From NCBI GenBank assembly GCA_002401855.1, contig NVUH01000001.1, positions 161,035 through 225,034 on the forward strand: a stretch of DNA of 64,000 nucleotides. The letters are read 5' to 3'. Made by a program: the position numbers and the translations under genes. The notes below the pieces were generated by a model. The model did not search any database and was not told the DNA's origin. It worked only from the letters and a program-made list of their open reading frames with translations. The DNA comes from Hyphomicrobiales bacterium (GTDB lineage Bacteria; Pseudomonadota; Alphaproteobacteria; Rhizobiales; OSC116). Below, one piece after another: positions 13,773-21,581 of the stretch. The stretch's first letter is position 1, and each line of letters starts with the position of its first letter.

Positions 13773-14210
13773 ATGGACATTAAAACCATCGCCGTGGTGG
13801 CACATGATTCAAAAAAACAAGTGCTGCTTGATTGGATGGAGGAACATTATGCGCTATTAAAAGGCCATAAATTCATCGCCACTGGCACAACGGGTAGTTT
13901 GGTGAAGCAAAAATTTACTGATATTGATATCGATATTAAGTTATCTGGCCCATTGGGCGGAGACCAACAAGTGGGGGCGCTGATCTCGACAGGTAAGGTG
14001 GATGTACTGATATTCTTTACCGACCCGATGACCGCTATGCCACATGATGTTGATGTGAAAGCGCTGACGCGGCTGGCCGTGGTTTACAATATCCCGACGG
14101 CTTGTAACCGCTCTTCTGCCGATTTTTTGGTCACTAGCCCATTTTTTGTTGCCAATTATCGCATTAACGATAATGACTATAGCCAGTATTTAGATCGATT
14201 TGAAAAGTAA
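13773..14210 (+). CDS. mgsA: Methylglyoxal synthase
   Basis: Converts dihydroxyacetone phosphate to methylglyoxal and phosphate, a bypass of lower glycolysis. The 145 residues contain IAVVAHDSKKQ, FIATGTTG (phosphate binding), LSGPLGGDQQVGA with the catalytic Asp, VLIFFTDPMTAMPHDVD, and NIPTACNRSSADF near the end. The length is normal. Transcribed away from bdhA. A GCCGA/TCGGC hairpin (14214-14229) follows the stop but lacks an immediate T-run, so read-through into the structured region downstream is possible. Confidence 0.93.
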   Translation: MDIKTIAVVAHDSKKQVLLDWMEEHYALLKGHKFIATGTTGSLVKQKFTDIDIDIKLSGPLGGDQQVGALISTGKVDVLIFFTDPMTAMPHDVDVKALTRLAVVYNIPTACNRSSADFLVTSPFFVANYRINDNDYSQYLDRFEK

Positions 14211-14229
14211 TAAGCCGAATTTTATCGGC

Positions 14230-14593
14230 GTCAATATTTTACACCCATGTTTTTTTCATTGATTTTATTTGCATTCATACCTAAGTAAATATGATGGTTG
14301 CTGGCGAATACTTAATTTCACTCACGCTATTTGGCGTTTGTATTGCTGATAGATATTGCAAATCAATTCAGATGAAAGCACTTTCAGTTGATACAATAAG
14401 GCGATGGTTTTGTTGCGCAAAACTGGTTAATATATTTTGTTTAATCGACTAAATTTGGCGGATTTTGGGCACTTATTGTTGCCGAATTTCGGGGTTTTTT
14501 GATGTCTATGAGCGTATAAATTGAGGGGTGAATTTGGGTCGTTTCCAGTCATTTTTATAGCGTGGTTAAGGGCTTAGCGGGGCGTGTAGATTT
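14230..14593 (+). other. Gene-free stretch with hairpins and a terminator-like end
   Basis: No plausible ORF. Structures seen: TGAAA-GCAC-TTTCA around 14373-14386, a 6-bp stem GTTTTG/CAAAAC around 14405-14422, and CCGA-ATT-TCGG at 14482-14492 followed by GG and six T (14495-14500), which looks like a weak plus-strand terminator. This could end either read-through from mgsA or a small RNA lying between about 14330 and 14500. Confidence 0.3.
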
Positions 14594-15020
14594 ATCAGAT
14601 TGCTTATTTACAAGTCTGCTGCTAGTTTAATTTAAGAATGTTTCATCTGATTCAATCTGGGGCCTAGTAACCTCGAAGGTAAGTGGGGTATCGCCAAATC
14701 GATACATCATCTCGAGTTAGGATCGGGGTGGTGGCGCTATGTTCAAGCTCTTCAATGTCTAGCGACGTTGCTTTGAGCTAAAATCGTCATGGCTGACTTA
14801 CTTCAGTTTACTAACACCCCGATCACCAGAGATTCTGGTGATCGATTTTGACTCGGTTTTGGGCACCAGAGATTCTGGTGATCGATTCTGACTCGGTTTT
14901 GGGCACCAGAGATTCTGGTGATCGATTCTGACTCGATTCAAGGCACCAGAGGTTTTGGTGTTGAATTATTTATTGGATTAAGACCAGAAATTCTGGTGAT
15001 TGATCTTGGCTGGTTTTGGG
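14594..15020 (+). ncRNA. Structured locus 1: conserved leader domain plus tandem hairpin array
   Basis: No ORF. The element starts with ATCAGATTGCTTATTT, which is repeated at the start of locus 2. The leader holds a hairpin GTATCG/CGATAC (14688-14693 with 14700-14705), then a long-range 10-bp helix GATCGGGGTG (14721-14730) with CACCCCGATC (14815-14824). It encloses GGTGGCGCTATG and a small CTGA/TCAG hairpin. The closing strand runs directly into an array of five hairpins with period about 40 bases (14824-15020). All main features recur in locus 2 although spacer sequences differ, which argues for selection on RNA structure. I do not recognise it as any RNA family I know. Confidence 0.6.
14824..15020 (+). 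repeat. Tandem array 1: 40-bp units with CACCAGA/TCTGGTG hairpins
   Basis: Units at 14824, 14864 and 14904 are nearly identical 40-mers: CACCAGA-GAT-TCTGGTG, then a linker ATCGATTCTGACTCGG and TTTTGGG. Units 4 (14944) and 5 (about 14983) are diverged, yet keep the stem. Unit 4 is CACCAGA/TTTGGTG, where a G-U wobble replaces G-C; this keeps pairing only if the plus strand is the RNA. Units 1-3 contain nine GANTC sites within 14831-14939. There are no variable spacers, so this is not a CRISPR array. Confidence 0.85.
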
Positions 15021-15121
15021 AAAATAGGCAGCAATAACCTATATTATTTCTTTCATACAGTGAGGTTTTATAATCTATTCGTCGAATTATGTTGGCTTTA
15101 AACACCAGCGTGATGGGGGAA

Positions 15122-15157
15122 GCAGTAAAAGGTTGTTTTACCACGGCCTTTTACTGC
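15122..15157 (+). other. 11-bp perfect stem-loop between the two structured loci
   Basis: GCAGTAAAAGG (15122-15132) pairs perfectly with CCTTTTACTGC (15147-15157) around a 14-base loop. There is no T-run directly after it, so it is not a standard terminator. It separates locus 1 from locus 2. Confidence 0.45.
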
Positions 15158-15251
15158 AATCCATAAACAAAATAGAACTTTTTTAGGTAACCACAAATAA
15201 AATTGATGTATATTTAAGGCTATTTAAACTAAGCTTTCCAATATATAATTA

Positions 15252-15640
15252 ATCAGATTGCTTATTTGTAAAGCACCTGTTAGCTTTCTTATAAATTGAT
15301 TCATTTGAATCAAATTGGAGCTTAGTAACTCTCAAGGCTAGTGGCTATATCGCCATTCGATATATCATCTCGAACTACGATCGGGGTGGTGGCGCTATGT
15401 ACAAGCATAAGTTCGCTTAGGCTAAAAACGTCATGGCTGACTAGCTTCAGTTTACTACACCCCGATCACCAGTTTTTATACTGGTGATCTTTTACCGCCT
15501 ATTTTGGGGCACCAGTTTTTATACTGGTGATCTTTTACCGCCTATTTTGGGGCACCAGTTTTTATACTGGTGATCTTTTACTGCCTATTTTGGGGCACAA
15601 GTTTTTATACTGGTGATCTTTTACTGCGGCAATATGCGTA
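15252..15640 (+). ncRNA. Structured locus 2: paralogue of locus 1
   Basis: Starts with the same 16 bases as locus 1 and follows the same order: hairpin ATATCG/CGATAT (15347-15352 with 15358-15363; its outer pair is A-T where locus 1 has G-C), long-range helix GATCGGGGTG (15379-15388) with CACCCCGATC (15458-15467), an identical GGTGGCGCTATGT box, the CTGA/TCAG hairpin, then a hairpin array. A TATAAT sits at 15244-15249, a few bases ahead of the conserved start, although no good -35 is visible. The array ends about 75 bases before the CMD gene, so locus 2 could also be read as that gene's leader. Confidence 0.6.
15467..15627 (+). repeat. Tandem array 2: 43-bp units with CACCAGT/ACTGGTG hairpins
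   Basis: Units at 15467, 15510 and 15553 are 43 bases and differ at one position. A partial fourth unit starts at 15596, with one stem mismatch. Each is CACCAGT-TTTTAT-ACTGGTG followed by ATCTTTTACCGCCTA and TTTTGGGG. Compared with array 1, the last stem pair is T-A instead of A-T, while the six pairs CACCAG/CTGGTG and the TTTTGGG tail are kept. Within an array the units are almost identical, but between arrays loop and linker differ throughout. Confidence 0.85.
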
Positions 15641-15703
15641 ATTGCTAATGTTAAAAACTGTCATATCCTGTAGGTGTAAATCACTTAAATATGGGAGTTA
15701 GAC

Positions 15704-16048
15704 ATGAGCAAAAATTACGTAGAAATTACCGATAGAATTAGCAGAAATGTTAACACAATCGCCGAGTTACAACCTGATGTGATGAAGAATTTTTCGGCCA
15801 TGGCAGCGGCTGCAACAGCAGATGGGGTGTTGGATTTAAAGACCAAGGAATTGATCGCGTTGGCGATTGGCATTACCCAACATTGTGATGGTTGTATTGG
15901 TTATCATATTAAAACCTTGGTGGGTTTGGGCGCGACGAAAGAAGAAGTGGCTGAAACATTATCGACATGCATATATATGGGTGGTGGCCCTGCGCTGATG
16001 TATGCGGCCGATGCCATGCAGGCATATGACCAATTTAGCCCGCAATAG
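15704..16048 (+). CDS. Carboxymuconolactone decarboxylase / AhpD-like protein
   Basis: A 114-residue protein of the CMD family with the AhpD-type redox motif: HCDGCIGYHIKTLVGLGATKEEVAETL, where Cys-X-X-Cys and the following His form the peroxidase-like site. The N-terminal half (FSAMAAAATADGVLDLKTKELIALAIGI) is typical of small CMD proteins. Such proteins act as small alkylhydroperoxidase-like thiol reductants, usually as oligomers; the physiological partner is unknown. A GGGAG ribosome site stands nine bases before the ATG. It lies directly downstream of structured locus 2. Confidence 0.85.
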   Translation: MSKNYVEITDRISRNVNTIAELQPDVMKNFSAMAAAATADGVLDLKTKELIALAIGITQHCDGCIGYHIKTLVGLGATKEEVAETLSTCIYMGGGPALMYAADAMQAYDQFSPQ

Positions 16049-16572
16049 CTGGTGAGCCCGCTTGGTTTGAACCGCTTGTGGTTTGAACCAAGCGATGCTG
16101 GCAATGAGACCGAGATATTACGCGCAGTTTATTGTCACTCGGTGCGCGCTATAATTTCTACAAATCACTCAAAACTTAAAGTATGCCCCTCACATCTAAA
16201 CAACGTGCCATGCAGTGAGCGAGAGTGCTATAAATAATAGGTTTTAACTTTTGATACAGTAACAGAGTGTTAGCACTCCTGCCAACACTCTGGAAATCTC
16301 ATTTATACGTTCGCTACGCTCTCTGTTAGCACTTGCGTGCGCAATCCCAAACAAGTTGGGCTTGCTAGCTGGCCGCGCGTTAGATGGCAGCGGCTTCGAA
16401 CGGCCGCACTCGCGCTCGCGGGATGGCACGTTGTTTGGATGTTAGGGGTAGACGGGAATTTGGGGTTTGTTGTTTGGTGGGGTGATGTTGGGTGGTTGTG
16501 GTTTGGGTGGTTGTGGTTTGGGTGGTTGTGGTTTGGGTGTGTTGTGGTTTGGGTGTGTTGTGGGGGATGCGG
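16049..16572. repeat. Repeat-rich spacer: palindromic repeat remnant and GT minisatellite
   Basis: No gene is seen here. A 9-bp stem CAGAGTGTT/AACACTCTG (16263-16271 with 16284-16292) is followed by CGTTCGCTACGCTCTCTG and TTGCGTGCGC, which match pieces of the dispersed repeats at 46.9, 52.6 and 63.6 kb. Further on, 16487-16562 is a minisatellite of about five units of GTTTGGGTGGTTGTG (15-16 bases). Open frames across this stretch have repeat-driven composition and are not genes. Confidence 0.7.
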
Positions 16573-20062: not shown

Positions 20063-21196
20063 TTATGATTTTGGTTTGTAATAATTTTGCGGCACAAATG
20101 GCATTTTGGCGACTTTGGCGGGGCGGGCTTTGCCGCGCACCATTAGATCGACCTCGGTTCCAATGTCGGCAAACTCTGTGGCGACATAGCCCATGGCGAT
20201 CGGGCCGCCGAAGGTGGGGCCGAAGCCGCCTGAGGTGATCTCGCCGATTTTGTTGCCTGATTTGCTGTAAATTTCGGTATGTTCGCGGGCGGGGGCGCGG
20301 CCCTCGGGCAATATGCCGACGCGTTTGCGAAAGGCGCCATTGGTGAGTTGTTGTTGTATTATGTTGGCGCCCGGGAAGCCGCCATCTTCGCGGCGGCGTT
20401 TGCCGATTGCCCACATGAGGCCAGCCTCAACGGGGGTGGTTGATGTGTCGATGTCGTGGCCGTAGAGGCAGAGGCCAACCTCTAGGCGTAGGCTATCGCG
20501 TGCACCGAGGCCGATGGCTTCGACTTCTTCGTGCGCTAGTAGCATTTTTGCGAATTCTATGGCTTGTTGGTTGGCGATGGAGATTTCGTAGCCATCTTCG
20601 CCTGTATAGCCGCAGCGGCTGACGACTAAATTCATATCATTAAATTTAGTGTGAATGAGGCTCATGAACGGCATGGTGGCAACATCTGGCAGATGGCGTG
20701 CCAAAACTTCGGCGGCTTTTGGGCCTTGTAGGGCGATTAAAGCGCGGTCGAGGATTTCTAAGGTGGCTTGGCCAGCTAGTTTTTGACTGATATGTTCGAA
20801 ATCGGCATGTTTGCAGCCTGCGTTGACAACTAGGAATAAGCACTCGAAACCATCGGCGTTATTGGATAGACGGGTGATCATTAAATCATCTAAAATGCCG
20901 CCATCTTCGGCCATTAGCAGGCTGTAGCGCATTTGCCCATCTCTAAGGCTGATCAAGAGGCCCGGCACTAGGGTTTCGAACAATTCGGCAATGTTGGTGG
21001 TTTTATCGGTGGCAGTGAGGATGGCTTGACCCATGTGGGAGACATCAAACAGGCCTGCATTTTGGCGGGTGTGATTATGCTCGCCCAATACGCCAAGCGG
21101 ATATTGCACTGGCATATCATAGCCAGCGAAAGGCACAATTTTTGCACCTAATTCAACATGTAGATCGTGTAACGCAGTTTTTAAATTATCGCTCAT
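20063..21196 (-). CDS. gcvT: Glycine cleavage system T protein (aminomethyltransferase)
   Basis: Transfers the methylene unit from GcvH to tetrahydrofolate and releases ammonia. Landmarks over 377 residues: KIVPFAGYDMPVQYPLGVL, NAGLFDVSHMGQAIL, LITRLSNN-type region (LDDLMITRLSNN), CGYTGEDGYEIS, LGARDSLRLEVGLCLYGHDID, and the C-terminal GEITSGGFGPTFGGPIAMGYV. The second of two adjacent ATG codons is preferred because AGGGG lies five bases before it. First gene of the operon, immediately downstream of the glycine riboswitch. Confidence 0.95.
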   Translation of the reverse strand: MSDNLKTALHDLHVELGAKIVPFAGYDMPVQYPLGVLGEHNHTRQNAGLFDVSHMGQAILTATDKTTNIAELFETLVPGLLISLRDGQMRYSLLMAEDGGILDDLMITRLSNNADGFECLFLVVNAGCKHADFEHISQKLAGQATLEILDRALIALQGPKAAEVLARHLPDVATMPFMSLIHTKFNDMNLVVSRCGYTGEDGYEISIANQQAIEFAKMLLAHEEVEAIGLGARDSLRLEVGLCLYGHDIDTSTTPVEAGLMWAIGKRRREDGGFPGANIIQQQLTNGAFRKRVGILPEGRAPAREHTEIYSKSGNKIGEITSGGFGPTFGGPIAMGYVATEFADIGTEVDLMVRGKARPAKVAKMPFVPQNYYKPKS

Positions 21197-21270
21197 CATT
21201 ACCCCTCAAGTGGACGGAATTTTGGCTCCGTCTATATTACAGACTCGTGCAATCTCAGAATTTGAGATCT

Positions 21271-21488
21271 GCCCCCTCTGTCCATAACCTGAGAGATTTG
21301 CCCATCCTATTCAAAAAATAGTATGAGTTTGCGCCCTTCGGTGGATAATAACTTTTAAGTATAAAGCCTTATCGCTCTCCAGAGTGTCATCAAACTGCGG
21401 TCCGTTTGCCTGAGAGTTTCCGGGGTGGTTGCTCCTTCGGCGTTTGACAGCTTACCATTTGCATGGTTTGGGAATCAAAACTCTCCCG
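21271..21488 (-). ncRNA. Tandem glycine riboswitch
   Basis: Reading the minus strand there are two glycine aptamers in series. Aptamer 1 (about 21488-21398) has CGGGAGAG, CGCCGAAGGAGCAA, CCCCGGAAACTCTCAGGCAAA and GGACCGC. Aptamer 2 (about 21382-21271) has CTGGAGAGCG, CACCGAAGGGCGCAAAC, ATCTCTCAGG and GGACAGAGGGGGC. Two hairpins lie between it and gcvT: ATCTCA/TGAGAT (21252-21268) and GACGGA/TCCGTC (21213-21232), the likely expression platform. In this family glycine binding usually turns gcv expression on. Confidence 0.95.
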
Positions 21489-21581
21489 CAGTCGTCACTT
21501 GTATTTGGGATAATATAGCCAAGCAAAATTATATGTCAATTAGAGTTTTGACCTAATCTATACTTGCTTGGCTATTTGTTT

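Follow-up and report, generated by a model that had tools for sequence, protein, structure and literature searches.

Two sRNA-Xcc1-related RNA loci with cores complementary to their own leaders in a Hyphomicrobiales genome

In phage P1, the sequence record gives the order promoters, a1, b1, C4, a2, b2, icd and ant1, and the covariance model of C4 (RF01695) consists of a closing stem, two hairpins and a linker. Excerpts of one account describe RNase P processing at the 5′ end of the P1 stem of C4, partial occlusion of ribosome-binding sites by a b′ loop and specificity conferred by an a′ loop (PMC5320573). The CI RNA of P4 pairs with seqA and seqC, which leads to termination (PMC4825925, in excerpt). 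sRNA-Xcc1 (RF02221) has so far been studied in Xanthomonas and Xylella as an RNA that acts in trans and is linked to virulence; an extract of one study gives 212 predicted targets for its Xylella homologues (PMC12189769), and an extract of another leaves its relation to the adjoining symE gene open (PMC12444791). In the literature naming sRNA-Xcc1, the spelling ‘antirepressor’ was not found (that spelling only), and ‘C4 antisense RNA’ is named in one paper. Rfam assigns RF02221 to no clan and places C4, c4-2 and c4-a1b1 in CL00128.

Here we describe two paralogous loci, copies A and B, in a 64,000-nucleotide stretch of a Hyphomicrobiales genome (contig NVUH01000001.1; hereafter the window). 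Both lie in a gene-free stretch, with no ORF of at least 70 aa between 14210 and 15704, and follow one plan (Table 1): a common 16-base start ATCAGATTGCTTATTT at 14594 and 15252, a long-range helix GATCGGGGTG/CACCCCGATC (helix P1), a GGTGGCGCTATGT box and tandem 3′ hairpins, five in copy A and four in copy B. The absence of genes and every element of this plan had been pointed out in a sequence-only reading of the window, and all are found. Neither stretch is equalled in folding by any of its 100 dinucleotide shuffles (z = –7.66 and –4.94).

Table 1. Positions of the features discussed (window coordinates unless a locus handle is given)
Feature	Position	Strand	Basis or detail
Copy A putative promoter-like start	14600..14628	+	TTGCTT, 17 nt, TAGTTT; conserved block, genus alignment
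Copy A 5′ dyad, hairpin or operator	14636..14657	+	helix 1: both-side changes in 5/9 pairs, 15 sequences
Copy A leader target	14659..14684	+	antisense to core of same locus; covariation
Copy A a1, in leader-target hairpin	14665-14670	+	TAGTAA
Copy A b1, in leader-target linker	14677-14684	+	AGGTAAGT
Copy A hairpin between target and core	14688..14705	+	no T-run; helix 3: both-side changes in 3/6 pairs
Copy A sRNA-Xcc1-like core, 104 nt	14721..14824	+	fold; antisense covariation; model R1 match
Copy A core, P1	14721-14730/14815-14824	+	
Copy A core, P2	14731-14736/14785-14790	+	
Copy A core, last hairpin	14793-14806	+	b′ 14796-14803; a′ in linker 14808-14813
Copy A array, five terminator-like hairpins	14824..14998	+	at 14824, 14864, 14904, 14944, 14982
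Copy B putative promoter-like start	15258..15286	+	same conserved block as copy A
Copy B 5′ dyad	15294..15315	+	helix 1
Copy B leader target	15317..15342	+	a1 15323-15328 (TAGTAA); b1 AGGCTAGT 15335-15342
Copy B hairpin between target and core	15347..15363	+	helix 3
Copy B sRNA-Xcc1-like core, 89 nt	15379..15467	+	RF02221 match; fold; antisense covariation
Copy B core, P1	15379-15388/15458-15467	+	
Copy B core, last hairpin	15437-15450	+	b′ 15440-15447; a′ 15452-15457
Copy B array, four terminator-like hairpins	15467..15615	+	at 15467, 15510, 15553, 15596
CMD-family gene after copy B, neighbour	15704..16048	+	Pfam PF02627
Small ORFs after single-hairpin copies	L004 1654-1923; L018 5491-5778; L021 4226-4504; L024 5032-5298		
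Further small ORFs after single-hairpin copies	L020 3954-4175; L022 4533-4772; L023 3986-4207		
Dispersed repeat	16188-16446; L004 1175-1350 and 1966-2088		

Among 61 genomes searched at the DNA level, the six of the genus all have copies, whereas copies were found in 0 of the 55 others; the own genome carries a third copy at another place, and the genus set comprises 13 copies from the six genomes. Over 15 related sequences, 92.1% of the cells of the fold are paired and 15 of the 43 fold pairs have changed on both sides, against a shuffle mean of 7.5 and a value reached by 0 of 500 shuffles; these pairs, like the a1/a′ and b1/b′ pairs treated below, were picked after the sequences had been viewed. 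Further pair types in the fold were not above shuffles in the same 15 sequences (120 of 500). The reading of the loci as a structured RNA is supported, its stems covarying among related genomes.

The proposal that this RNA matches no known family is not. With cmscan, copy B gave a full-length match to RF02221 (1-87/87, 35.3 bits, E 0.00039) below the gathering threshold of 53 bits, and six other genus copies gave full-length sub-threshold matches of 32.5-49.5 bits. The threshold was reached by no genus copy (best 49.5), a match was reported for none of the remaining six of the 13, copy A (searched up to E 5) included, and a search with stricter filters left the own genome without a match. The consensus fold of RF02221, made up of helix P1, an inner helix and the last hairpin, is thus covered at full length in seven of the 13 genus copies. 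A covariance-model search had been suggested in the earlier reading; our model R1, built from 15 sequences and with rough E-values, matches the core of copy A and, among 397 genomes of the order, gives matches in 51, of which 45 lie outside the genus. A pattern search gave 31 matches, among which L099 and L117 were read beyond the genus and many others may be chance. RF02221 itself matched 57 of 398 sampled Pseudomonadota genomes, 39 of them above the cut-off, and 0 of 14 controls. Judged by sequence and predicted fold, the core is a divergent relative of sRNA-Xcc1, and a new RNA class without relatives is rejected on the strength of the matches in genus copies. The window core has the P1, inner helix and last hairpin of sRNA-Xcc1, and canonical loci also have the antisense leader target described next; the window loci differ in that their hairpin before the core lacks a T-run, that neither an antirepressor nor a SymE gene accompanies them, that no second target was detected, that they carry tandem 3′ hairpins and that they score below gathering.

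Each core carries bases that mirror its own leader. The loop of the last hairpin (b′) and the linker before the 3′ arm of helix P1 (a′) are antisense to b1 and a1 in the leader of the same locus, and in canonical loci the last hairpin and linker of the core are likewise mirrored in antisense by an upstream hairpin and linker. Over the 15 sequences, 93.7% of the cells of a1/a′ and b1/b′ are paired, and 10 of the 14 pairs show both-side changes (38 cells). Their covariation is 0.522 against a shuffle mean of 0.154 (0 of 500 shuffles), with slid versions at or below 0.095, a comparison that favours these pairs because they were chosen after the sequences had been seen. In an alignment-free swap test, the own leader was the best partner in 11 of 13 genus copies, 15 of 19 loci from other Hyphomicrobiales and 27 of 46 canonical or viral loci (0 of 20000 permutations in each case). 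Same-sense swap controls in the genus and canonical sets were not significant (18361 and 4111 of 20000), and for the upstream target a version of the test based on energies points the same way (0 of 10000 each). The single-locus signal varies, 22 of the 46 canonical loci lying above the 99th percentile of swaps. The canonical loci are 30 among the matches listed from the 57 RF02221-matching genomes; an exact pattern found 19 viral-contig stretches, and the 49 canonical and viral loci minus three duplicates form the set of 46. The further Hyphomicrobiales set holds 24 loci among the matches listed from the 45 R1-matching genomes outside the genus, 19 of which have distinct antisense segments. 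Searched as an exact composite pattern, the a1-b1 target of either copy has a single occurrence in the own genome, the leader of that copy (zero mismatches allowed; backward control patterns gave 7 and 1 matches).

Since each copy carries bases complementary to its own leader, repression of its own transcript is likely, and we consider it probable that the window holds two sRNA-Xcc1-related units acting as antisense self-repressors of the C4/P4 CI type. Among the options floated in the sequence-only reading, an antisense role is therefore supported, but the antisense bases lie in the core and not in the array. The leader transcript would be driven by the promoter-like start, to which a sigma-70 promoter scan gives no support (4 found against 4.8 expected, none at the starts of copy A or B). 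The core would be released as a stable RNA, perhaps through cleavage by RNase P, which has been reported for C4, and would then pair in trans with a1/b1 of the next transcript, shifting that transcript towards termination. Covariation of a1/a′ and b1/b′ cannot separate pairing in trans from pairing in cis, and the same bases might belong to a cis-acting attenuator only, in which a1/b1 pair with a′/b′ within one transcript and compete with helix P1 and the terminator that shares its bases. A terminator-like hairpin does directly follow helix P1 and share bases with it; in copy A this hairpin (CGATCACCAG/CTGGTGATCG) uses the end of P1, including its GATC. We nevertheless regard an attenuator of this kind as unlikely, given that sRNA-Xcc1 appears as an RNA of ~100 nt on Northern blots, with mapped ends and a length of 88 nt (PMC2996969, in excerpt), and that C4 and P4 CI act as separate RNAs (PMC5320573; PMC4825925; both in excerpt).

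Antisense self-repression is also what the comparison with C4 of phages P1 and P7 (RF01695; c4-a1b1, RF03163) and with P4 CI suggests. The window loci share with C4 the order of promoter-like start, a1, b1 and RNA, and a core with a closing stem and hairpins, b′ in the last loop and a′ in a linker; canonical sRNA-Xcc1 units share the layout annotated for C4 of phage P1. Unlike C4, the window loci have no icd or ant genes and no detected a2/b2, and the C4 covariance model finds nothing in 14500-15720 (up to E 5). As with P4 CI, the window RNA is complementary to its own upstream site, and canonical units are complementary to a downstream site as well (PMC4825925, in excerpt); the difference is that the second site was not detected in the genus, P4 being compared by description and not by sequence. 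In phage P1, isrK (RF01394) matches a1/b1 and the terminator-like hairpin, the equivalent part of the leader, at 35.1 bits (gathering 50); neither the window stretch nor any of 20 sRNA-Xcc1 or viral loci gave an isrK match. By analogy, we read the window element as working like a C4/CI RNA and, the C4 model being unmatched, claim no membership of the C4 family.

Most canonical loci are ordered as target, terminator-like hairpin, RNA and second target near the next start codon. A terminator-like hairpin lies between target and core in 36 of the 46 canonical and viral loci; in the genus, the hairpin preceding the core is followed by no T-run. A ribosome-binding-like site and ATG are found 20-75 nt past the core in 41 of the 46, and in 37 of these 41 no more than 14 nt separate the end of the best antisense match from the start codon, a placement without a control of its own. 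The downstream second target of canonical loci is supported by the swap test (0 of 20000), with 10 of 46 above the 99th percentile. It is weak in other Hyphomicrobiales (637 and 192 of 20000), and over the next start in the genus it is not seen: the own combination is best in 0 of 13, and 19868 of 20000 permutations reach the value (16851 with the P1 arm included). We scanned 39 of the 49 downstream ORFs, ten being omitted as duplicates or doubtful frames (L071, L073, L075, L082, L086, L125, L132, L133, L136 and L137). The 39 proteins gave Bro-N 9, pRha 6, P22_AR_N 1, KilA-N 1, SymE 2, HTH_38 3 and Rap1a 1; several of the PHROGs families that downstream proteins match bear an antirepressor name, and some phage records with a related stretch annotate an antirepressor there, others having no annotation. 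The same core segments of canonical units also match the start of the gene that follows, in many cases an antirepressor, and would hold that gene silent.

More speculatively, and with somewhat less than even confidence, we propose that sRNA-Xcc1 is an unrecognised lineage of C4-type immunity RNAs across phages and mobile elements of Pseudomonadota, silencing antirepressor and SymE genes through its own leader and their starts, and that the window holds a cargo-free chromosomal pair, orthogonal and self-targeting, whose variable terminator array may serve as a read-through dial. Locus-specific covariation points directly at targets, namely the leader of the RNA itself and, for canonical units, the start of the gene that follows, so that a function of sRNA-Xcc1 in phage immunity or toxin control becomes testable. 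Two sRNA-Xcc1 units lie directly before SymE-family genes (L061 1624-1836, by Pfam match; L081 1265-1462, by our own reading), the antisense match ending 9 nt and 3 nt, respectively, before the start codon. A SymE-type unit partially matched five plasmid records, with 0 annotated features under the matches. In L075 (24-1193), 20 CRISPR-DR4 repeat matches precede a canonical unit by ~300 bp, on the same strand.

The 3′ arrays consist of 40-nt units in copy A, where the first three hairpins are nearly identical and the last two diverged, and of 43-nt units in copy B, 96-99% alike. Elsewhere in the genus the hairpin is mostly single: 10 of the 13 copies (six genomes) have one terminal hairpin and 3 of 13 have more than one, copy A of genome G005 having three and a degenerate fourth. 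The pattern used for counting missed the single hairpin of three copies and double-counted single hairpins in the own copy A and in that of G005. The shared plan proposed in the sequence-only reading therefore stands for the fold of core and leader but not for the tandem array. A scan for terminators on both strands of 14200-15720 gave 8 sites against 1.6 expected, five of them on array hairpins. The tandem hairpins are predicted transcription terminators that probably multiplied recently; with one hairpin in most genus copies, we read an array as a single terminator-like hairpin multiplied. The near-identical hairpins of the window, five in one array and four in the other, could also suggest that the array is itself the working part, whether as sponge, antisense multimer or guide-like RNA. 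Such a role is highly improbable, since the array is not conserved: most genus copies do with one hairpin, and linkers, alike inside one array, differ between the own copy A and that of G005. With more than one hairpin in so few copies, a scaffold presenting many copies of a loop no longer describes the family, and the sponge, multimer and guide readings lose their basis and are rejected. The tail of array A (15021-15034, AAAATAGGCAGCAA) is 86-93% complementary to linkers of array B (15492-15505, 15535-15548 and 15578-15591), which may be chance, as the tail in G005 differs. In type III toxin-antitoxin systems a tandem-repeat RNA precedes a toxin gene; this candidate was rejected because of the rarity of the array in the genus and because the gene after copy B belongs to the CMD family. 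For a possible integron gene cassette, which would have attC sites and an integron integrase, no integrase match over the cut-off was found in the own genome, and weak matches also occurred in 14 of 14 controls.

The position of copies A and B behind an MGS-domain gene is conserved in three species, in two of which, including G002, the CMD-family gene follows copy B; G001 and G003 have CMD relatives of ~65% identity on other contigs. The own copy A is 83% identical to that of G002 and 95% identical to that of G005, and the antisense pairs are kept while the leaders drift. No cargo gene was found after copy A or B (ORF list; Pfam on the gene after B), nor an antirepressor operon downstream of either. 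Small ORFs of 73-95 aa follow other copies of the genus, in the place where phage P1 has icd. Pfam gave 0 matches in five of these ORFs tested, PHROGs gave two weak matches to families of unknown function, and six proteins found with one alignment are unnamed or hypothetical, some being the query's own. These facts bear on whether copies A and B are relics, that is, the decayed remnant of a mobile unit that lost its cargo and is kept by chance, its repeats growing without use. The missing cargo gene fits such an origin, as do the small ORFs after other copies and the four copies that lie between copies of a dispersed repeat; a place held in three species and antisense pairs retained despite leader drift speak against it, and we think it quite improbable. 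As self-repressing units, the window copies may have lost their cargo and would each function alone, as antisense RNAs distinct from one another, with the tandem terminators as insulation; the window then shows a unit of the sRNA-Xcc1/C4-like kind persisting without cargo.

Several smaller features of the neighbourhood were noted. In single-hairpin copies, the small proteins, of two kinds, start ~26-45 nt beyond the region of the terminal hairpin. A dispersed repeat of ~170 nt, matched 49 times in the own genome and often arranged in inverted pairs ~100 bp apart, brackets four RNA-plus-small-ORF copies of the genus (L004, L018, L021 and L024). Downstream of the CMD gene, short G/T-rich tandem repeats of the GGGTGGTTGTGGTTT type were seen by eye at ~16489-16563 of the window. 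Finally, a glycine riboswitch (RF00504, 69 bits) lies on the minus strand of the window at 21388-21498, upstream of a same-strand ORF (20063-21199) whose product we take to resemble the glycine cleavage T protein.
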